Part shown: piece by piece, positions 11,301-21,636 of the stretch | How positions within the stretch are numbered: the first letter of the stretch is position 1 | Layout: each line of letters starts with the position of its first letter | Source of the DNA: Gallionella sp. | GTDB lineage: Bacteria; Pseudomonadota; Gammaproteobacteria; Burkholderiales; Gallionellaceae | DNA length: 33,878 nt | Assembly (NCBI GenBank): GCA_013043965.1 | Contig: JABEVF010000045.1 | Span: 1-33,878, forward strand | Direction: 5' to 3' | Program-made: the position numbers and the translations under genes | Notes under the pieces: model-generated | Database searches by the model: none | What the model was told of the DNA's origin: nothing | Seen by the model: only the letters and a program-made list of their open reading frames with translations

Positions 11301-12176
11301 ATGACAGACCAATACGCCGTCATCGGCCATCCCATCGCGCACAGCAAATCCCCGTTGATCCACCAGATGTTCGCCGAACAGACCGGACAAGACATCCGCT
11401 ACACAGCCATCGACTCTCCTCTGGACGGTTTCGCCGCGACCATAGAACGCTTGCACGAGGCGGGGTACCAAGGTTGCAACGTCACCGTGCCGTTCAAATT
11501 CGAGGCGTTCCAGCTCGCGACACGCCTGAGCGAACGCGCACAGGCGGCGCAGGCGGTCAACACGCTCAAGTTCGACGGTGACACGATACTCGGCGACAAC
11601 ACGGATGGCGCGGGTCTGGTGCGCGACATTCAGCACAACCTGGGTACCTTGCTCAAGGACAAACGCGTGTTACTCATAGGTGCGGGCGGAGCGGCTTACG
11701 GTGTGGCCTTGCCGCTGGTTCATGCCCAGGTGTTTCTGAAAATCTTTAATCGCACCGAACAAAAAGCAAAAGCCTTAAAAAAATCGCTGCTCCAAGCCCT
11801 AGAACGATCACGCTCGCCCGCGATCTTTGACGCAATAAACCAACCCTCATCCAAGGTCGATGTGTATTCGCTGATGAACGAAGGTCAGCCTTTTGACGTT
11901 GTCATCAACGCCACCTCCGCAGGCTTAACGGATAGCGAGATTCCCTTGCCGCCCGGTATTTTCGCGCCGCACGCGCTGGCCTACGACATGATGTACGGAC
12001 GCGACACCCCGTTCATGAAGTTCTCCCGCGCGCAGGGTGCGCAGGTGGCCGACGGACTGGGGATGCTGGTCGAACAGGCGGCGGAAGCTTTTTACCTCTG
12101 GCGCGGCGTGCGCCCCGACACCGCGCCCGTCGTCGCGGCGTTGCGTCAGTTATGTCAGGTTCCACCTTCGTGTTAG
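11301..12176 (+). CDS. aroE: Shikimate 5-dehydrogenase
   Basis: A 291-residue NADP-dependent shikimate dehydrogenase, reducing 3-dehydroshikimate to shikimate in aromatic amino acid synthesis. Visible motifs: the shikimate-binding SKSP in GHPIAHSKSP, the catalytic Lys in NVTVPFKFEAF, the Asp of LGDNTDGAG, the nucleotide-binding GAGGAAYGV and NRT for NADP, then VINATSAGL and ADGLGMLVEQAAEAF. The start at 11301 matches the family; upstream in-frame sequence lies in the MITE-like block. The protein is about 20 residues longer than the E. coli enzyme (about 272), the extra lying between NRT and VINATS (about residues 155-195), where the DNA is also more AT-rich. In many betaproteobacteria mtgA follows aroE directly; here the restriction block intervenes. 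Confidence 0.95.
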   Translation: MTDQYAVIGHPIAHSKSPLIHQMFAEQTGQDIRYTAIDSPLDGFAATIERLHEAGYQGCNVTVPFKFEAFQLATRLSERAQAAQAVNTLKFDGDTILGDNTDGAGLVRDIQHNLGTLLKDKRVLLIGAGGAAYGVALPLVHAQVFLKIFNRTEQKAKALKKSLLQALERSRSPAIFDAINQPSSKVDVYSLMNEGQPFDVVINATSAGLTDSEIPLPPGIFAPHALAYDMMYGRDTPFMKFSRAQGAQVADGLGMLVEQAAEAFYLWRGVRPDTAPVVAALRQLCQVPPSC

Positions 12177-12215
12177 CATCCAGCGATAACTAAAACATGC
12201 TGACAGGTAACACGA

Positions 12216-13943
12216 ATGCTTTGGATTGCCCCTTCTGAAAAGGACCTCGCAAGTGATGACCTTGAAAAACGCCTGTGGAATACCGCCGACCAGTTCCGCG
12301 CCAATTCCGGGCTGACTGCGGCGCAGTATTCCGCGCCGGTGCTCGGACTGATCTTCCTGCTGTTTGCCGAAACTCGTTTTGCGCAGCGCCGCGCTGTTTT
12401 GCTCCCCTCCCCCGCAGGCGGGGGAGGGGCTGGGGGAGAGGGACGTCGAGCGAGTAACCGCGCCGATGAACCTGCCGCCTACCATGCCGAAGGCGTGATC
12501 TTCCTGCCGCAAGCGGCTCGCTTTGAGCATCTATTGAACCTGCCGGAAGGCGCGAACGTCGGACAGGCCATCAATGACGCGATGGCCGAAATCGAAAAGC
12601 ACAATCCGCAGTTGGCGGGCGTGCTGCCGCGCACCTACCAGATTTTCACCAGCACCCTGCTCAAGGAGTTGTTGAAAAAAGTCTCCGAGATTCCCGTCAG
12701 CCTCGACTACGATGCCTTCGGCCGAATCTACGAATACTTCCTCGGCGAATTCGCCCGCACTGAAGGGCAAAAAGGCGGCGAGTTCTACACGCCCAGCTCC
12801 ATCGTGCGCCTGCTGGTCGAGGTGATCGAACCGTTTCACGGGCGCATCCTCGACCCCGCCTGTGGCTCCGGCGGCATGTTCGTGCAGAGCGCGCGTTTCG
12901 TTGCCGAGCACCAGCGCAAACTCCCCTCGCCCTCAGGGAGAGGGGCTGGGGGTGAGGGAGAGATGCCTAATCCGGCTGATGAGTTATTTATTTGTGGCGT
13001 GGAAAAGACCGACGACACCGGACGCCTGGCGCGCATGAACCTCGCCATCCACGGTTTAGAGGGCGACATCCGCCACGGCGGCCACATCAACAGCTACTAC
13101 GACGATCCGCACGAAGCCGTCGGCAAATTCCATTTCGTCCTCGCCAATCCGCCGTTCAACGTCAACGCCGTGGACAAGGACAGGCTGGCATCGGACGTAG
13201 GCGCAGGCCGCCGTTTCCCCTTCGGCCTGCCGCGCACCGACAACGCCAACATGCTGTGGATACAGTTGTTCCATTCCAGCCTGAATAACAAAGGCCGCGC
13301 CGGATTCGTCATGGCGAACTCCGCCTCGGACGCGCGCAGCAGCGAACAGGACATCCGCAAGCAGTTGATCGAAGCGCGCGCCGTGGACGTGATGGTCGCC
13401 GTCGGGCCCAACATGTTCTACACCGTCACACTGCCCTGCACGCTGTGGTTTCTCGACAAGGGTAAGCAGGGCACGCTGCGCGCCGACACCATCCTCTTCA
13501 TCGACGCCCGCCACATCTACCGCCAGATAGACCGCGCGCATCGCGATTGGGCGGATGCGCAGATCGGCTTCATCGCCAACATCGTGCGCCTGTATCGAGG
13601 CGAAGCGCCGGACTACACCTTGGGCGGGGAGGAAGCCAAGGCCAAGCTCGCCGAACTCTTCAGTTCGCCCCCTTTGCAAAAGGGGGCCGCCGCAGGCGGG
13701 GGGATTTGCTATGCCGACATCCCCGGCCTGTGCAAAGCCGCCACCCTCACCGAGATCGAAGCGCAAGGCTGGAGCCTCAACCCCGGCCGCTATGTGGGTG
13801 TGGCGGTGGGTGAAGAAGTCAGCGACGAAGACTTCAAGGAAAAGCTGGAAACGCTGAATGAGGAACTGGAAGTGCTGAATGCCCAAGCACGCGAACTGGA
13901 GCAGACCATTGCGATGAATGTGGCGGAGATTCTGGAAGCATGA
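12216..13943 (+). CDS. hsdM: Type I restriction-modification methyltransferase subunit HsdM
   Basis: A 575-residue N6-adenine methyltransferase subunit of a type I system; with HsdS it methylates the host recognition sites. It has the helical N-terminal domain ([14 protein letters not shown] region), the SAM motif [11 protein letters not shown] (residues 212-222) and the catalytic NPPF (311-314), plus the conserved [15 protein letters not shown] and NPGRYVGV blocks. The C-terminus is a coiled coil ([24 protein letters not shown]). Three GC-rich palindromic repeats are inserted in frame, adding peptides at residues 63-76, 236-248 and 484-496. All lie in poorly conserved loops and leave the motifs untouched, so the enzyme is probably functional. 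The stop overlaps hsdS by ATGA. It begins 39 bp after aroE. Confidence 0.95.
12402..12443 (+). repeat. Palindromic GC-rich repeat, copy 1, in frame inside hsdM
   Basis: The core is a perfect 10-bp inverted repeat, CCCCTCCCCC (12404-12413) and GGGGGAGGGG (12420-12429), with a 6-nt loop, followed by CTGGGGGAGAGGG. Translated in the hsdM frame it gives [14 protein letters not shown]. It shares layout and tail with copy 2, so both belong to one repeat family. Confidence 0.85.
12921..12962 (+). repeat. Palindromic GC-rich repeat, copy 2, in frame inside hsdM
   Basis: The stem is CCCCTC (12923-12928) and GAGGGG (12940-12945) with one internal mismatch and an inner CCC/GGG pairing, followed by CTGGGGGTGAGGGAGAG. 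In the hsdM frame it encodes [14 protein letters not shown], the same reading frame of the repeat as copy 1. The insertion lies just after the SAM-binding region, between AEHQRK and the NPADEL segment. Confidence 0.85.
13665..13703 (+). repeat. Second type of palindromic repeat in frame inside hsdM
   Basis: Two hairpins in tandem: CCCCCTTT-gca-AAAGGGGG (13668-13686) and CCGCC-gca-GGCGG (13687-13699). It differs from the two other copies in hsdM and represents a different repeat family. It is translated as [13 protein letters not shown] near residues 485-496, between the AKLAELF helix and [10 protein letters not shown]. Confidence 0.8.
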
Positions 13944-15187
13944 GTATGGCAACGCCTACATGGAAACCCGCCAAGCTCGACGAACTCGGATTCGTTGGAC
14001 GAGGCAAATCGCGCCATCGTCCTCGCAACGCGGCGATTCTCTATGGCGGGAGCTATCCGTTTTTCCAAACAGGCGACATTAAGGCTGCAAATTTCTATCT
14101 CACCGAGTTTACGCAGACCTACAGCGAAGAAGGGCTGGCGCAAAGTAAACTTTGGAAGCCTGGAACTCTCTGCATTACCATTGCCGCAAATATCGCCGAA
14201 AGTGCAATTCTCGGCATTGAGGGATGTTTTCCTGACAGTGTCGTCGGTTTCGTAGCTGACCCCGACAAAGCCGATGTTCGCTTTATCAAATACTACATGG
14301 AGATTCTTAAGCTCCAAATGCAGAGTGTGTCACGCGGAACGACACAAGATAACTTGAGCGTGGATAAACTGCTGTCCTTCGATTTCTTTGTCCCTCCGCT
14401 CCCTGTTCAACGTCGCATCGCGGGCATCCTCTCCGCCTACGACGAGCTGATCGAAAACAACCAGCGGCGCATCCGCATACTGGAAGACATGGCGCGCAGC
14501 CTCTACCGCGAATGGTTTGTCCACTTCCGCTACCCCGGCCACGAATCCGTGCCGCTCGTCGATTCATCGCTTGGGCAGATTCCGCAGGGGTGGGAAGCCA
14601 CAACATTCGGCGAACTTTACGACACCAGTTCTGGCGGGACACCCAGTCGAAAACGCCCAGATTATTTTGAGGGTGGAACAATTAGCTGGGTTAAAAGCCA
14701 AGAACTCCTTGATGGATTCATTCTTGCAACAGACGAGTACATTACGGACTTGGGTCTTAAAGAGTCATCGGCAAAACTCTTCCCCGTGAATACGGTTTTG
14801 GTCGCGCTATATGGGGCGACTATTGGGATGCTTGGTATCCTTGCTTGTGCTGCAACGACCAACCAGGCCTGTTGCGCAGTGCTTCCGAAGCGTGATCCAT
14901 TTGGTCGGGAGTTTGCATTTCTGACACTACTGGCAAATCGTGAACGAATAATTGGCCTCCGGCTCGGCGCTGCTCAGCAGAATATCAGCCAAGTATTGTT
15001 ACGTGGGTTTGAGTGCATTAAACCGACCGACCAACTTGTTCAAACATTTTCCGAGAAGACTGCGCCGCTGTTTGAAAGAATTTTGAATTTGCAACGCCAA
15101 ACCGCCAACCTCCGCCGCACCCGCGACCTGCTGCTGCCGCGCCTGCTGTCGGGTCAGGTGCAACTTGAAGATGTGACGCTACCATGA
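13940..15187 (+). CDS. hsdS: Type I restriction-modification specificity subunit HsdS
   Basis: A 415-residue specificity subunit with the usual two target-recognition domains and two helical conserved regions. TRD1 spans about residues 1-155; the first conserved region ([38 protein letters not shown], described here by its ends) covers ~155-195. TRD2 runs from [25 protein letters not shown] to about residue 370, followed by the second helical region ending [19 protein letters not shown]. The start overlaps hsdM by ATGA; an ATG six bases later is possible. The 3' end overlaps darT by ATGA. The DNA target cannot be read from sequence. Lower GC in both TRDs than in the conserved regions is normal for diversifying domains. 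Confidence 0.95.
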
Positions 15188-15813
15188 CCATGGACTTGAC
15201 CAAGATTCGGATTTATCACATCACGGATGTGAGCAATTTACCGAATATTCTTGCGGCAGGTGGTTTACATTCCGAATCGACTTTGCAAATAGCTGGGGCA
15301 CATCCGACCGTTATCGGACACAGTAATATCAAGCAGCGGCGCTTGCAGGAAATTACCGTGCCGTGCTGCAGCAATCGTTTTGTGGGTGAGTTTGTGCCGT
15401 TCTACTTTTGTCCGCGTTCGCCCATGCTGCTCACCATCAACCGTGGCAATACCGGGCGCGAGCCGGGTTGCCAGAAGCAGATTGTGCATCTGGTGAGTAC
15501 GATGCAAATTGCGACAGGGCTGGGTCGTGAATGGGCTTTCAGCAACGGGAATGCGGGTGCTTTTCTGACCGATTTTTTTGCGGATGTGGAAAGCTTGACC
15601 GAACTGGACTGGGCGATCATCAACTCCACCGACTGGGGCGGTGAGCGACGGCATCGCAAGCAAGCGGAATTCCTGCTGGCGGATTTCTTTCCGTGGGCGG
15701 CAGTCCGTGCGATTGGTTGTTATAATTCCAGCACCAAACAGGAAGTTGAGACACTGCTGCAAGGTCAGGGAAATCCGCCCAATGTTGTTGTTCGATCCGA
15801 TTGGTATTACTGA
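15184..15813 (+). CDS. darT: DarT-type DNA ADP-ribosyltransferase toxin
   Basis: A 209-residue DarT family (formerly DUF4433) protein, which uses NAD+ to ADP-ribosylate single-stranded DNA and blocks replication. Visible family features: YHITDVSNLPNIL at the start (H12 in the NAD pocket), the NIKQRR segment, FVPFYFCPRSPML, and HRKQAEFL with the presumed catalytic Glu162. Its size fits the short DarT subgroup. The start overlaps the hsdS stop by ATGA; an ATG two codons later is possible. darG follows after 7 bp. DarTG pairs are known toxin-antitoxins and anti-phage abortive systems. All expected motifs are present, so it is probably active and requires the antitoxin. Confidence 0.92.
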   Translation: MTMDLTKIRIYHITDVSNLPNILAAGGLHSESTLQIAGAHPTVIGHSNIKQRRLQEITVPCCSNRFVGEFVPFYFCPRSPMLLTINRGNTGREPGCQKQIVHLVSTMQIATGLGREWAFSNGNAGAFLTDFFADVESLTELDWAIINSTDWGGERRHRKQAEFLLADFFPWAAVRAIGCYNSSTKQEVETLLQGQGNPPNVVVRSDWYY

Positions 15814-15820
15814 GGCTGAC

Positions 15821-16891
15821 ATGATTGAAATTTCCAAAGGTAATTTGCTGGAGGCTCCCGTCGAGGCGCTTATCAACACCGTCAACACCGAAGGTGTGAT
15901 GGGCAAGGGGATTGCGCTTCAGTTCAAACAGGCTTATCCGGCCATGTTCAAAGCCTATGAGAAAGCTTGCGCTGCGGGTGAAGTGCACCTGGGCAAGATG
16001 CATGTGTTTGACTTGGGTGGCCTGGTGGGCGGTCCGCGCTGGATTATCAATTTTCCGACCAAGGGGCATTGGCGCTCACGCAGCCGCTTGGCTGATATTG
16101 ATGCGGGTCTTGCGGATTTGGTCGAGCAGATTCGGCGCTTGGGTATACGCTCGATTGCCGTACCGCCTTTGGGCTGCGGCCATGGCGGTTTGAGTTGGAG
16201 CGAAGTGTCCCCCCGGATTGAGGCGGCACTGGTAGCATTGCCCGATGTCAAGGTCGCGTTATACCCCCCACTAGGTGCGCCCTTGGCTGAAGATATGCCG
16301 ATACGCACGGAAAAGCCTGCCATGACGGAAGGCCGTGCAGCGCTGCTGGCCTTGATGGATCGTTACCTGCAAGGCTTGCTTGATCCATTTGTGAGCTTGC
16401 TGGAGATACATAAGCTGATGTACTTCATGCAAGAGGCAGGGCAGAACCTGAAGTTGAAGTTTGAGCCGCATCATTTCGGCCCTTATGCGGTCAATTTGCG
16501 CCAGGTTCTGATTAAGCTCGAAGGGCATTATCTTCATGGATATGGCGACGGCGAAGATACGCCAACAAAGCCTATTGAAATAAATACTGATGCGGTGGTT
16601 GCTGCGACTAATTTCTTGCGTCCACATGAAGATGTTTTATCCAGAATGGATCGCGTGGCCACATTGATTGAGGGCTTTGAAGACCCATATGGAATGGAGC
16701 TGTTAAGCACTATGCATTGGGTTATGTGCCACGATGTTGAGGCGCGCAACTCGCCTGAAAGCGCGATTGCCGCTGTTCATCGTTGGAATACTCGTAAGCA
16801 GGAAACACTGAAAGCGGAACATCTCCACAAGGCATGGGATCGACTCAAGTCCTTGCACTGGGACACCGAGTCCCGTACCGCCATCCACTAA
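15821..16891 (+). CDS. darG: DarG-type macrodomain antitoxin
   Basis: A 356-residue antitoxin with two parts. Residues 1-155 form a macrodomain that removes ADP-ribose from DNA: NTVNTEGVMGKGIALQFK, NFPTKGHWR (K81 matches by motif the catalytic Lys described for Thermus DarG) and PPLGCGHGGL. Residues ~165-356 form the DarG C-terminal domain, which binds and blocks the toxin (LLEIHKLMYFMQEAG, HHFGPYAVNLRQVL). The start at 15821 is chosen because the macrodomain begins there; the open frame extends upstream into darT. A weak GAGG precedes it. It gives both enzymatic reversal and direct neutralisation of DarT. Full length for the family. Confidence 0.92.
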   Translation: MIEISKGNLLEAPVEALINTVNTEGVMGKGIALQFKQAYPAMFKAYEKACAAGEVHLGKMHVFDLGGLVGGPRWIINFPTKGHWRSRSRLADIDAGLADLVEQIRRLGIRSIAVPPLGCGHGGLSWSEVSPRIEAALVALPDVKVALYPPLGAPLAEDMPIRTEKPAMTEGRAALLALMDRYLQGLLDPFVSLLEIHKLMYFMQEAGQNLKLKFEPHHFGPYAVNLRQVLIKLEGHYLHGYGDGEDTPTKPIEINTDAVVAATNFLRPHEDVLSRMDRVATLIEGFEDPYGMELLSTMHWVMCHDVEARNSPESAIAAVHRWNTRKQETLKAEHLHKAWDRLKSLHWDTESRTAIH

Positions 16892-17012: not shown

Positions 17013-17183
17013 ATGCAATCACCTAATAAAAAAGCAATTTCACGAATACACCTGCTTGGCAGGGGTAGGGCGTTCTCGCCGAATAATTCCGTCGAGGGGT
17101 TTAGCCGCGATCAGATTGAATACGCGCTGGTGGGATTGCGTCGCGAGCAGAAGATATGCCGTATCTGCGGGGAGCGCGGCTGA
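17013..17183 (+). CDS. Possible 56-aa protein coupled to the AlbA_2/ATPase gene
   Basis: A short open frame of 56 residues that starts with ATG and ends in a TGATG overlap with the next gene. The N-terminal half is basic (SPNKKAISRIHLLGRGR); the C-terminal half reads like a real helix followed by a CxxC pair (IEYALVGLRREQKICRICGE), a possible half zinc site. No convincing ribosome site precedes it. Evidence for translation is the overlap and protein-like composition only; it could instead be a leader peptide or the decayed end of an older gene. I do not recognise the family. Confidence 0.35.
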   Translation: MQSPNKKAISRIHLLGRGRAFSPNNSVEGFSRDQIEYALVGLRREQKICRICGERG

Positions 17184-18562
17184 TGGATATTTTGCGGCTT
17201 CTATCGCTCGCTGAAAGCAAGACGCTTGAGTTCAAGCGTAAGTTGTCGTCGCCGAAGCCGGTGTTGCGCACGCTGGTGGCTTTTGCCAATACGGCTGGCG
17301 GGACGCTAATTATTGGCAAGTCGGATGATGGGGAAATTGTCGGGGTAGATGATGTCCTGGCTGAAGAGGAGCGGCTGGCCAGTCTGATTGCCGACAGTAT
17401 CGCGCCTGTGATGATGCCCGAGATCGAGGCGATCACCGTGGAAGATAAAACGCTGTTGCTGGTGCGCGTGGCTCATTGGCCGGGGCCGTTTTACCTGAAG
17501 GAGATGGGGCTGGTAGATGGGGTGTATGTGCGGCTGGGTTCCACCAACCGCAAGGCGGATGCTGCGATGCTGGCAGAGATGGAGCGCTTTCGCAGCAACC
17601 ACTCGTTCGATCAGTTGCCTTGCGCTGAGGCCGGAGAAGAGGCGCTGGATGATGCCTTGATCCGCCGCTGGTTTGAGACCATCGGCAAAGAGATGCGAAC
17701 ATCCGACCTGGAATCAATGGAGATACTGGTGCCGCATGGCTCGCGCAAAGTGGTTTCCAATGGCGGCATGATCCTCTTCGGCCGCGAGGAAGTACGAAAC
17801 CGCTATTTCCCGGATGCCAATGTCTCTTGTGCCCTGTTTCACGGCGCGACAAAAAGCCGCTTTCTTGATCGAAAGAATTTCGGGGGTGGCATCTTTGGTG
17901 CGCTGGAAGAGGTGCCGAAATTCATTGCCCGCAATACGCGCCTGGCGGCGAAGATCGAGAATATTCGTCGGCAGGACATCCCTGAGTATTCGGTAGTGGC
18001 TGTGCGTGAAGTGCTCATCAATGCCTTGGCGCACGCCGATTATGGCGTTACCGGTATGCGCCTGTTCGTATCCATCTTTTCCGACCGACTGGAGATACAG
18101 AACCCCGGCATGTTGCCTTTTGGCATGACACTGGAGGATTTTAAATCGGGCATCAGCCGGGTGCGCAATCGCGTGATCGCGCAGGTGCTGCACCGGCTGG
18201 AGATCATGGAGCGCTGGGGCAGCGGCTATGAGCGGATTCGCGAAGCCTGCCGCGAAGGCGGTTACCCGGAGCCGGAATGGCAGGAGATGGGCATGTGTAC
18301 GCGCGTCATCTTCCGCCCGCATCCTGATGTCGCAGCAAATGAGCCTGCAAATGAGCCTGTAAATGAACGGCAACGCTGGTTCATGGAGCAGCTCCAGCGC
18401 GGTGGGCAGGTAAAAGCCGAGGACATCGTGAGTCAATGGCAGGTCAGTCTGGCGACGGCTAAACGAGACATTGCATCGCTACGAGAAAAAGAACTAATCG
18501 AGTTCATTTGGGCTGCCAAGACGGGTAGCTATCGGCTGAAAAAGTCAGGAAAGAATCGCTAA
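17183..18562 (+). CDS. AlbA_2 (Schlafen-like) and histidine-kinase-type ATP-binding protein
   Basis: A 459-residue protein of the group often labelled 'RecG-like ATP-binding' or 'putative transcriptional regulator'. Residues ~1-130 are the AlbA_2 domain (ESKTLEFKRKLSS, then LVAFANTAGGTLIIGKSDDGEIVGV). Residues ~265-375 are a GHKL-type ATPase region (VVAVREVLINALAHADY, EIQNPGMLPFGM, MERWGSGYERI). A short ANEPANEPVNER repeat (three near-identical 12-bp units) joins a C-terminal winged-helix-like domain (~395-450). The ATG at 17183 follows GGGGAG by 8 nt; an ATG at 17156 is less likely. It lies 2 bp before hsdR and co-occurs with type I systems in other genomes as far as I recall; its exact job in defence is unknown. 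Confidence 0.85.
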   Translation: MDILRLLSLAESKTLEFKRKLSSPKPVLRTLVAFANTAGGTLIIGKSDDGEIVGVDDVLAEEERLASLIADSIAPVMMPEIEAITVEDKTLLLVRVAHWPGPFYLKEMGLVDGVYVRLGSTNRKADAAMLAEMERFRSNHSFDQLPCAEAGEEALDDALIRRWFETIGKEMRTSDLESMEILVPHGSRKVVSNGGMILFGREEVRNRYFPDANVSCALFHGATKSRFLDRKNFGGGIFGALEEVPKFIARNTRLAAKIENIRRQDIPEYSVVAVREVLINALAHADYGVTGMRLFVSIFSDRLEIQNPGMLPFGMTLEDFKSGISRVRNRVIAQVLHRLEIMERWGSGYERIREACREGGYPEPEWQEMGMCTRVIFRPHPDVAANEPANEPVNERQRWFMEQLQRGGQVKAEDIVSQWQVSLATAKRDIASLREKELIEFIWAAKTGSYRLKKSGKNR

Positions 18563-18564
18563 CG

Positions 18565-21500
18565 ATGTCGCCCGGTAACTACTCCGAAGACAGCCTCGTC
18601 GAACAACCAGCCATCCAGCTCTTCGCAGAGCTGGGCTGGGAGACGCTATCTGCTTCGGATGAGGTGATGGGCGCGAGTGGCACACTTGGGCGCGAGACGA
18701 AATCCGAGGTGGTGCTGGCCGTGCGTTTGCGTAGTACGCTGGTACGGCTGAACCAATCGTTGCCATCCGAAGCAATCAACGCCGCCGTTAATGAGCTGTC
18801 GCGTAACCGCTCCGCGATGTTGCCTACCGCTGCGAACCGCGAGCTTTGGGCGTTGATGCGCGACGGTGTGAAGGTGTCCGTGCCTGACTTGGTAAGGGGC
18901 GGGCAGAAAAATGAGCAGGTACGGGTGGTGGATTGGGACGATCCCACCGCCAACGATTTCTTGCTGGTGAGCCAGATGACTATCGTCGGCCAGCTTTACA
19001 CCTGCCGCCCGGATTTGATCGGTTTCGTGAATGGTCTGCCGTGGGTGGTGATTGAGCTGAAGAAGCCGGGCGTGCCTGCCAAGCAAGCCTTTGATGGCAA
19101 CCTCACCAGTTACAAGCACGCGCAGAACGGTGTCCCTGCGCTGTTCTGGTCGAATGCCTTGCTCATCGCTTCCAACGGTTCGGATAGTCGCGTCGGTTCG
19201 CTGACTGCCGACTGGGAGCGTTTCTTTGAGTGGAAGCGCATCGAGCGCGAAGACGAGCCGCGCCGCGTGTCGCTGGAGGTGATGCTGCGCGGTCTGTGCG
19301 AACCCTCGCGCTTGCTCGATCTCGCAGAGAACTACACGCTGTTCTCCGAACACAAGAGCGGGCTATCCAAGATCATCGGGCAGAACCACCAGTTCATCGG
19401 AGTGAACAACGCGATCCGCGGGATGCTTAAGGCGCGCGAGGAAGGTCACGGGCGAGGCGGTGTGTTTTGGCAGACGCAGGGTTCCGGCAAGAGCTTTTCG
19501 ATGGTGTTCTTCGCGCAGAAGGTGCTGCGCAAGATTCCGGGCAACTGGACGTTTGTGGTCATCACCGATCGGGTTGAACTGGATGAGCAGATCGCCAAGA
19601 CCTTTGCAGCTTGCGGCGCAGTGAGTGATGCGACCGTCTGCCATGCGCAAACTGGTGCGCAGTTGCGCGAGCTGCTTTCAGGCAACAATCGCTATGTGTT
19701 CACGCTGATCCACAAGTTCCAGACTTCCGAGGTGCTGTGCGACCGGCGCGACGTGATCGTGCTGACCGACGAGGCGCACCGCAGCCAGTACGACACGCTG
19801 GCGTTGAACATGCGCGCTGCGCTGCCGAATGCGATGTTCGTCGCGTTCACTGGCACACCACTGATCGCAGGCGAGGAGCGCACCCGCGAGGTGTTCGGCG
19901 ATTACGTTTCCATTTACGACTTCCAGCAATCCGTCGAGGATGGCGCGACCGTGCCGTTGTTCTACGAGAACCGCACGCCGGAACTGCATCTCGATAATCC
20001 AGACCTGAACGATGACATCTACGAACTGATCGAGAACGCAGATCTCTCCGATGAGGCCGAGAAAAAGCTGGAGCGCGAGTTGGGGCGGCAGTATCACCTC
20101 ATCACCCGCGACGACCGGCTGGATACGGTGGCGCAGGACATCGTGCGGCATTTCCTCGGACGCGGCTTTCAGGGCAAGGCGATGGTAGTGTCCATCGATA
20201 AGGCCACGGCGTTGCGCATGTATGACAAGGTGCGCAAATACTGGCCGAAAGACGACCACACCGACATGGCGGTGGTAGTGTCCCCAGGTCAGAACGAGAT
20301 CGAGCAGATGGCGACGCTGGGCATCGACATCGTGCCGCATCGCAAGCGTATGAACGAAGAAAAGTTGGATGAGAAGTTCAAGGACACCAGTGATCCGCTG
20401 CGCTTGGTATTCGTCTGCGCGATGTGGCTGACCGGCTTCGACGCGCCGAGCTGTTCGACCATCTATCTCGACAAGCCGATGCGCAACCACACGCTGATGC
20501 AGACCATCGCCCGCGCTAACCGTGTGTACCCCGGAAAACACAGCGGCCTGATCGTGGACTATGCCAACGTGTTCGCGTCACTGGAAAAGGCACTGGCGAT
20601 CTATGGGCAGGGTGGCGGTGGCGAAATGCCGGTGCGCGACAAGAAAGCATTGGCGGATGAATTGCGCTATGCGGTGAATGACGCGAATGTGTTTTGCTTG
20701 GAGCATGGCGTTGTTCTGGCGGAGATCGAGAACATGCCAACCGCCAACTTCGCCCAAGTGGGTGCGATTCAAATTGCAGCCGACCGTTTGATGGCGCCGG
20801 AAGCGATCAAGCGTGATTTCCTCGCGCTGGAGGCATTGGTGAGCAGTTTGTATCGCGCAGTGAAGCCCGATCCTGTCGCGGTCGAGTTTGTGCAGCGTTG
20901 TGGATGTCTTGCCGCAATCGCGCAGTGCATACGCACCGTGACTGAGCCGCCCGATATTTCACACATCATGCAGGGCATACAGAGCTTGCTGGATGAGTCT
21001 ATCGCCGCAGAGCCATTCACCATCCAGCAGCGCACGGCCAACTACGGACAGATTGATTTATCGAAGATCAACTTCGAGGCGTTGCGCAAACGCTTCGAGA
21101 ACAAGAAGCCGAGCAATACCGATGTTGAACGTCTGAAGGCCGCAGTGCGCGCGCAACTGGAACGCATGGTGCGCCTCAACCCGACACGTGCCGACTATCT
21201 GGTGAAGTTTCAGGAGCTGATCGAAGGCTACAACTCGGGCAGTCGTAACATCGAGGAAATCTTCAAGGAGCTGCTGGCACTTTCTACTGTGCTGACGGAA
21301 GAGCAAACACGGCATGTGCGCGAGAATCTGAGCGAAGAAGAATTGACCATCCTGGATATTTTGACCCGGCCTGCTCCCCAGCTCACTACGGAAGAGCGCA
21401 ATGAGGTAAAGAAGGTTGCGCACCACTTGCTAGAGAAACTGCACAAGCTGTTGGTACTGGGTTGGCGGCAAAAGATTTCCACTCGTGCTCGTGTGAAGAT

Positions 21501-21636
21501 TGAGATCGAAAATGCGTTAGATGAAGGCTTGCCGCGCGCTTATTCCAAGGACATTTACGAAGCCAAATGCTCTGCTATTTTTGAGCATGTGTATCAGAGC
21601 TATCAGGGTGAGGGACATAGCGTTTACGCAGCGTGA
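18565..21636 (+). CDS. hsdR: Type I restriction endonuclease/translocase subunit HsdR
   Basis: A 1023-residue motor and nuclease subunit. The N-terminal nuclease has RPD-x13-ELK (D150, E164, K166), the PD-(D/E)xK site. The translocase follows: Walker A QTQGSGKS with K309, DEAH at 402-405, the motif III FTGTPL, and helicase-lobe-2 motifs (LTGFDAPSCSTIYLDKPM, QTIARANRVYPGK). The C-terminal helical region that docks on HsdM/HsdS occupies roughly residues 860-1023. With hsdM and hsdS this makes a complete system that cleaves DNA lacking the host methylation. It is separated from hsdS by about 3.4 kb holding darTG and the AlbA_2 gene. No frameshift or stop is seen. Confidence 0.95.
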   Translation: MSPGNYSEDSLVEQPAIQLFAELGWETLSASDEVMGASGTLGRETKSEVVLAVRLRSTLVRLNQSLPSEAINAAVNELSRNRSAMLPTAANRELWALMRDGVKVSVPDLVRGGQKNEQVRVVDWDDPTANDFLLVSQMTIVGQLYTCRPDLIGFVNGLPWVVIELKKPGVPAKQAFDGNLTSYKHAQNGVPALFWSNALLIASNGSDSRVGSLTADWERFFEWKRIEREDEPRRVSLEVMLRGLCEPSRLLDLAENYTLFSEHKSGLSKIIGQNHQFIGVNNAIRGMLKAREEGHGRGGVFWQTQGSGKSFSMVFFAQKVLRKIPGNWTFVVITDRVELDEQIAKTFAACGAVSDATVCHAQTGAQLRELLSGNNRYVFTLIHKFQTSEVLCDRRDVIVLTDEAHRSQYDTLALNMRAALPNAMFVAFTGTPLIAGEERTREVFGDYVSIYDFQQSVEDGATVPLFYENRTPELHLDNPDLNDDIYELIENADLSDEAEKKLERELGRQYHLITRDDRLDTVAQDIVRHFLGRGFQGKAMVVSIDKATALRMYDKVRKYWPKDDHTDMAVVVSPGQNEIEQMATLGIDIVPHRKRMNEEKLDEKFKDTSDPLRLVFVCAMWLTGFDAPSCSTIYLDKPMRNHTLMQTIARANRVYPGKHSGLIVDYANVFASLEKALAIYGQGGGGEMPVRDKKALADELRYAVNDANVFCLEHGVVLAEIENMPTANFAQVGAIQIAADRLMAPEAIKRDFLALEALVSSLYRAVKPDPVAVEFVQRCGCLAAIAQCIRTVTEPPDISHIMQGIQSLLDESIAAEPFTIQQRTANYGQIDLSKINFEALRKRFENKKPSNTDVERLKAAVRAQLERMVRLNPTRADYLVKFQELIEGYNSGSRNIEEIFKELLALSTVLTEEQTRHVRENLSEEELTILDILTRPAPQLTTEERNEVKKVAHHLLEKLHKLLVLGWRQKISTRARVKIEIENALDEGLPRAYSKDIYEAKCSAIFEHVYQSYQGEGHSVYAA

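Follow-up and report, generated by a model that had tools for sequence, protein, structure and literature searches.

Palindromic elements in frame in loops of a Gallionella HsdM protein and their probable relation to a DUF559 nuclease-bearing form

Introduction

Selfish inserts inside host genes are known from Vsr-like (EDxHD) homing endonucleases and inteins, in which the insert is a small Vsr-fold nuclease. Rickettsia palindromic elements (RPEs) are palindromic repeats present in frame in many unrelated proteins; the first ones described are about 150 bp long, according to two reports (PMC10969869, PMC3733652), the second of which also includes shorter RPE families. REPtrons, formed by GTAG/CGTC REP sequences and a RAYT, comprise short high-copy hairpins, some of them intragenic, as well as dimers and a cognate enzyme (PMC3733652, PMC8266576). 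Recognition of REP by TnpAREP is covered in PMC8266576, and the presence of different REPs at about one site in Xanthomonas recB in PMC3733652. The domain DUF559 is described as a Vsr-like nuclease, and one DUF559 protein of Caulobacter has been tied to DNA damage (PMC12907096).

In-frame palindromes of Rickettsia and intragenic REPs are already published, and the new part of this work is the DUF559 form of the element, which is probably autonomous. A link between DUF559 and palindromic repeats was not found in the literature searched, most subscription journals being outside its scope. We know of no enzyme shown to spread in-frame palindromes.

Here we describe a 33,878-nt stretch of Gallionella sp. 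DNA (the window), whose hsdM gene carries three short palindromic inserts. Loci, genomes and contigs are given by our own handles (L, G and C numbers). Similar to RPEs, the inserts lie in frame in a protein-coding gene and bring no stop, and the likeness to the Rickettsia elements proposed in an earlier note on this DNA holds as an analogy; in comparison with the first RPEs, the present elements measure about 40 nt and have a G-rich tail and a nuclease link. They resemble REPtrons in the features listed above, but the present family-A inserts lack the GTAG/CGTC border tag and the candidate enzyme is the Vsr-like DUF559, not a HuH transposase. As in homing endonucleases and inteins, a Vsr-fold nuclease is carried inside host genes; in contrast to them, Pfam detected no intein domain in the 14 DUF559-bearing host frames, and nuclease and repeats stay in an open frame. 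Similar to MITEs, short non-autonomous palindromic copies occur alongside a longer, coding form whose ends are inverted. No classical transposase was seen in the element, and no target-site duplication could be established by eye in the present insert alignments. Our preferred reading, with a probability of roughly two in three, is that the inserts are solo derivatives of a mobile element with a DUF559 form, placed in frame in HsdM loops, and that the window gene was acquired by transfer.

The hsdM gene and its three inserts

The gene belongs to an island composed of hsdM, hsdS, a DarT-like gene, a macro-domain gene, a Schlafen-type gene and hsdR, bordered by a shikimate dehydrogenase gene on one side and a transglycosylase gene on the other.

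12216..13943, + strand: hsdM, type I restriction-modification methyltransferase subunit of 575 aa, with HsdM_N and N6_Mtase domains (Pfam); host of the inserts
12402..12442, + strand: S1, solo family-A palindromic element of 41 nt, hairpin and then a GGGGCTGGGGGAGAGGG tail; 14-residue peptide, net gain of 7 codons
12921..12958, + strand: S2, solo family-A palindromic element of 38 nt; 13-residue peptide, net gain of 17 codons
13668..13707, + strand: S3, solo family-B palindromic element of about 40 nt with two hairpins; peptide of about 14 residues, net gain of 11 codons
13940..15187, + strand: hsdS, specificity subunit, without family-A or family-B match
18565..21636, + strand: hsdR, restriction subunit, without family-A or family-B match

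Between hsdS and hsdR, at 15184-16891, a macro-domain ORF overlaps a DarT-like ADP-ribosyltransferase ORF, the two resembling a DarTG pair; a Schlafen/AlbA-type gene comes next, at 17156-18562.

The hsdM frame is open throughout, with zero internal stops, and the motifs DPACGSGG and NPPF are intact in its translation, which bears out the earlier note in its reading of three in-frame palindromic inserts that introduce no stop and spare the SAM and NPPF motifs. Family A consists of a hairpin followed by a GGGGCTGGGGGWGAGGG tail. As the note had proposed, the copies at 12402 and 12921 belong to one family and share a reading frame (24 nt at 92% identity), and the third copy, whose start is at 13668, belongs to another family with two hairpins. 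The claim that each copy adds 13-14 codons was wrong. Filled and empty segments, compared with the closest empty homologues, measure 45 and 38 for S1, 37 and 20 for S2, and 43 and 32 for S3; the net gains differ from the insert lengths because the inserts took the place of neighbouring native codons or brought additional ones with them.

Folding energies on the + strand gave z values of -2.0, -2.7 and -1.3 for S1, S2 and S3, which are unremarkable alone; the case rests on the recurrence of the families. Rfam reported nothing above the gathering score over 12100-14100, and a text search of the literature with the encoded peptide gave no match. The predicted HsdM fold matches solved HsdM structures, 3khk among them. 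In the model (mean pLDDT 71, 23 sequences) all three inserts are predicted to fall between secondary-structure elements, in agreement with the loops named in the earlier note. Segments 68-80, 236-249 and 486-495, which correspond to S1, S2 and S3, have a pLDDT below 50; they are three of ten such HsdM segments, and the inserts have no aligned relatives in the model, so that these low values are weak support for a loop position.

Acceptor loops in HsdM relatives

The first genome scan gave 43 loci, and further genome searches added more. The alignment comprised 58 loci and the window protein; the loci were matches with an identity of roughly 50% or higher, with L070, L081 and L083 added. Two further acceptor loops, absent from the earlier note and empty in the window gene, were found:

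13464..13481, + strand: S4 acceptor loop, residues 417-422 (KQGTLR), filled in relatives
13116..13124, + strand: S5 acceptor loop, about residues 301-303, filled in L048 and L055

S4 lies between the predicted strands 408-414 and 425-430, and is filled in L014, L015, L028/L225 (with DUF559), L043-L048, L050, L060, L070, L081, L091, L218 and L232. S1 is filled in L043, L044, L046, L071 and L074, and empty in L045, L047, L048, L056, L059 and L072; S2 is filled in L043, L044, L045, L048 (in another reading frame) and L074. Relatives with S1 or S2 filled are 84-94% identical. At S3, family B is present in the window gene and L044, family A in L043, a C-type repeat in L046 and L048, family E in L070, and mixed repeats in L045 and L067, while L218 carries a full DUF559 element. 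The convergence of two families on one gene, pointed out in the earlier note, was an understatement, since patterns of five families (A-E) and mixtures are present at the same HsdM loops. A further repeat family (VRPEPVEG or VRPELVEG, CTGAGC.TGTCGAAGG) occupies S3 or S4 of hsdM in L044, L067 and L232, with no DUF559 link here.

A set of 90 HsdM-type coding sequences was assembled after removal of duplicates, of loci containing long stretches of N and of matches shorter than 500 nt. Twenty-five out of the 90 carry at least one family match, with 52 matches to six patterns at 51 places, the symmetric family-B place in L037 being counted on both strands. All 52 matches have a border no more than 2 residues away from one of the five loops, which together span 87 of 575 codons, and none lies elsewhere; since the matches themselves served to define the loop windows, this count is descriptive. 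Carriers make up 18/49 of the sequences with at least 60% identity and 7/41 below it, and three of the 25 (L124, L218, L232) were fetched for already carrying a repeat or DUF559. Orientation is + in 46 matches and - in six, the latter belonging to double inserts (L046, L060), ends of DUF559 elements (L028, L218), L081 and the symmetric family B of L037. A reversed-sequence control gave 14 matches, all inside the loops, and is a poor control because the nearly symmetric elements lie in those loops. The hsdM of Sulfuricella sp. T08 possesses four family-A copies.

Even close relatives differ in which repeat family is present, in its frame and in whether a site is occupied; the sister rows L071/L072 (99/94), for example, differ at S1. 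On an insert-free HsdM tree, parsimony required at least 3 changes for S1, 4 for S2, 4 for S3 (8 counting family) and 8 for S4 (10 counting family), numbers that are rough because 14/31 inner branches are starred. Among the 34 rows, 32 were used for S1, 33 for S2, 31 or 29 for S3 and 31 for S4, rows without sequence at the site being dropped. Unrelated extra codons of L050 and L091 were not counted as S3 fills, nor was the truncated L056 as an S4 fill; L070, whose first part is frame-disrupted, has a long branch.

That the segments are ancestral parts of HsdM, lost many times, is very improbable. The residues flanking S2 (EKFSG) and S4 (A or S, then N or S) are common to close relatives and suggest old gains in the clade, and the shared codons beside these repeats fit fewer gains with family exchange as well as repeated insertion. 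Against ancestry, different families and frames are present at one site, a nuclease gene occupies the same site, the same families are found elsewhere in the relatives' genomes, and the sites are empty in distant HsdMs. Alignment with HsdM homologues, with empty sites in many relatives, agrees with the earlier note in treating the segments as inserts.

Copies in the host genome and origin of the gene

The host assembly has 2,478,987 bases in 157 contigs and is 95.7% complete. S3 is the sole occurrence of the family-B core (CCCCCTTTGCAAAAGGGGG, up to 3 mismatches) in these 2.48 Mb, and the strict family-A pattern (GGGGCTGGGGGWGAGGG, up to 1 mismatch) matched S1 and S2 only in the whole assembly. 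A looser family-A pattern, also searched in the whole assembly, revealed one extra copy on contig C23, at the S4 loop of a second hsdM (34% identical), which also has a VRPEPVEG-type repeat at S3. The genome search proposed in the earlier note thereby added one family-A copy and nothing for family B, and all three family-A copies found genome-wide are in hsdM genes.

The nearest hsdM is L074 of Sulfuricella, with 90% DNA identity over 705 columns, and the best hsdM in the sampled genomes of the same genus (G1015/L090) is 77% identical and insert-free. The lone further family-A match of the genome lies in a homologous loop of the second hsdM, which makes acquisition of the window gene by transfer probable.

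Repeats in other genes

In Sulfuricella T08 (G274), 24 matches were counted, ten of them of the tandem type. The other fourteen were followed up: five are in two hsdM genes, one in an MmeI-type gene, one in an HsdR gene (antisense), one in an HsdR-like gene (antisense, near the frame start), one in a UvrD-type gene (antisense), one at the end of a glycosyltransferase gene, and four have no overlapping frame over about 130 aa. Tandem 7-nt units (GAGGGGT), like the family-A tail, are present on contigs C62 and C70 of G274 and C110 and C170 of G289, both Sulfuricella. Genome G275 has 24 family-A copies by count; among the 21 copies listed, two are in hsdM and the other 19 were fetched.

Other genomes have copies in long open frames of MutS, MetRS, another class I tRNA synthetase, a CbiA/GATase protein, HypD, homocysteine S-methyltransferase and others. 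Thirty copy-overlapping frames were scanned, and the four without a family (L144, L146, L154, L155) may be spurious. In the MetRS of three genomes (L131, L158, L159) a palindrome is located in the linker that joins the anticodon domain to the tRNA-binding domain, twice with DUF559 and once without; this linker is a second same-gene hot spot.

These distributions bear on a reading with no dedicated mobiliser, in which replication slippage, template switching or recombination between G-rich tracts would produce the palindromes and hsdM loops would tolerate them. Gene conversion could account for the exchange of families at one site, the placement of every site between secondary-structure elements fits mere tolerance, and L081 resembles a recombination that joined the S4 and S3 repeats. 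This reading is nonetheless improbable, given that many unrelated genes contain the repeats, which also form inverted flanks of DUF559, and that S4 is filled in HsdMs 41-64% identical to the window gene. Locus L081 (1079-2864) is an hsdM with the S4 and S3 repeats fused and the intervening part lost, recombination-like or an assembly fault.

The DUF559 form of the element

DUF559 (PF04480) was detected in 11/17 chosen genomes, 61/274 genomes of the class and 1/14 control genomes; the window genome (G000) and G274 gave no DUF559 match. The proteins match above the curated cut-off with a conserved acidic core, and have a solved relative, 3hrl. In the E-x-D-G-x-x-H core, E, D, G and H are identical in 60/60 sequences and a stop is present in 4/60; judged by this conservation, the DUF559 nuclease is under constraint.

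The domain lies inside the host frame beside family-A copies in two MetRS genes (L131/L166, L159/L165) and in a radical-SAM gene (L150/L163), which we take to be YgiQ-type. Fourteen loci, picked for long frames and not at random, carry DUF559 in long host frames with Pfam support. The hosts are two HsdM, three HsdS-type, one HsdR, three DNA-methylase-type (N6_N4 twice, DUF1156 once), two MetRS, one radical SAM, one aminotransferase and one AIR synthase-like protein (at its C-terminal end), so that 9/14 are of restriction-modification or DNA-methylase type.

Inverted repeats flank many of the DUF559 genes. At 44/57 loci the flanking inverted-repeat score exceeds the 99th percentile of 1135 off-centre controls, and 13/57 fail this test; under a stricter control, which paired flanks of different loci, these having families in common, 28/57 exceed the 95th and 19/57 the 99th percentile. 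From the 60 loci, L167, L171 and L176 were dropped because their flanks were short or masked; L177 was not entered, nor were the fragments L175 and L178-L185, and L216/L217 were omitted as duplicates of L202/L212. Passing flanks include A-, B- and C-type repeats known solo in hsdM (L161, L228 and L164). On one side only and by eye, E-type (L173, L176), second B-type (L174) and second C-type (L172) repeats were seen; L172-L174 fail the flank score and L176 is unscored.

Two HsdM genes contain the domain in frame. In L225 (the gene of L028), the window HsdM is matched up to residue 417 and again from residue 422, with DUF559 in between, so that this locus holds a full element at S4. In L218 the match to the window HsdM reaches residue 465 and picks up again in the S3 region after DUF559, and S4 holds a solo family-A repeat. 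The presence of DUF559 at S4 in L225 and at S3 in L218 indicates that solo and nuclease-bearing forms share acceptor loops. Even with similar hairpins in both, the solo hsdM copies could still have no connection with DUF559.

Association across genomes

Among genomes with DUF559, 42/61 contain the repeat pattern, vs 33/213 among those without (OR 12, p=5e-15, relatedness and G+C uncontrolled); at least five copies are present in 28/61 vs 12/213. G+C content and relatedness may explain part of the repeat counts. Nineteen of the 61 DUF559 genomes have no repeat pattern, and 12 genomes have at least five copies and no DUF559. One of these, G047, has 47 repeat-pattern copies and no DUF559 match at E 1e-10, and is a candidate for another mobiliser or a lost DUF559.

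Alternatively, the palindromes would be REP elements moved by RAYT (HuH) tyrosine transposases, with DUF559 a passenger caught between two copies, which we consider unlikely. The Y1_Tnp domain (PF01797) is common (162/274 genomes) and weakly associated with the repeat, present in 54/162 genomes with the domain vs 21/112 without (OR 2.2, p=0.009; OR 4.7 at ten or more copies), and intragenic REPs are known in repair genes (PMC3733652). Across the 274 genomes, however, the repeat tracks DUF559 better than the Y1 transposase, and at five or more copies the DUF559 association persists with and without Y1_Tnp (OR 13 in both). Several different inverted repeat types flank DUF559, which also argues against a passenger. 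The GTAG/CGTC tag was found at the border of 2/33 family-A inserts, vs about 21% by chance; membership in the GTAG/CGTC REPs was rejected on this basis, and the link to REP-associated transposases raised in the earlier note found no support beyond the weak genome-level association with PF01797.

Proposed mechanism

Under the preferred reading, that of solo derivatives of a DUF559-form element, the three inserts would be solo, non-autonomous, MITE-like palindromic elements made of a hairpin and a G-rich tail. The larger form would be organised as hairpin-tail-[DUF559 nuclease gene]-tail-hairpin with inverted ends, and is likely autonomous. Both forms may enter protein-coding DNA and be kept where the frame is open and the peptide falls in a loop, by which the host protein would be lengthened and not cut short. 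HsdM has no fewer than five loops of this kind, which would have been hit many times, one family taking the place of another at a given site. DUF559 would cut at the element or the target and drive its movement, and host repair or strand exchange would perhaps copy the element into the break. Selection would retain in-frame loop copies, and the lengthened proteins presumably work. The inserts of the window hsdM would have been acquired in a Sulfuricella-like lineage of related betaproteobacteria, from which horizontal transfer would then have brought the gene to the Gallionellaceae genome.

More tentatively, at somewhat less than even odds, these elements may form a new class, in which a Vsr-like DUF559 nuclease between inverted palindromes lies in frame in loops of host enzymes without splicing and prefers restriction-modification genes. 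Loss of such a gene would be punished and the element thereby protected, and solo palindromes would be its footprints.

Implications

The repeat group can now be connected with one particular nuclease that is open to testing, and its full and solo forms occupy common loops within a single gene family. If the preferred reading is true, DUF559, a Pfam domain of unknown function, would gain a candidate role, and odd 13-residue repeat-encoded segments in proteins would be explained. The filled loops would then also provide a natural-experiment map of insertion-tolerant positions in HsdM.
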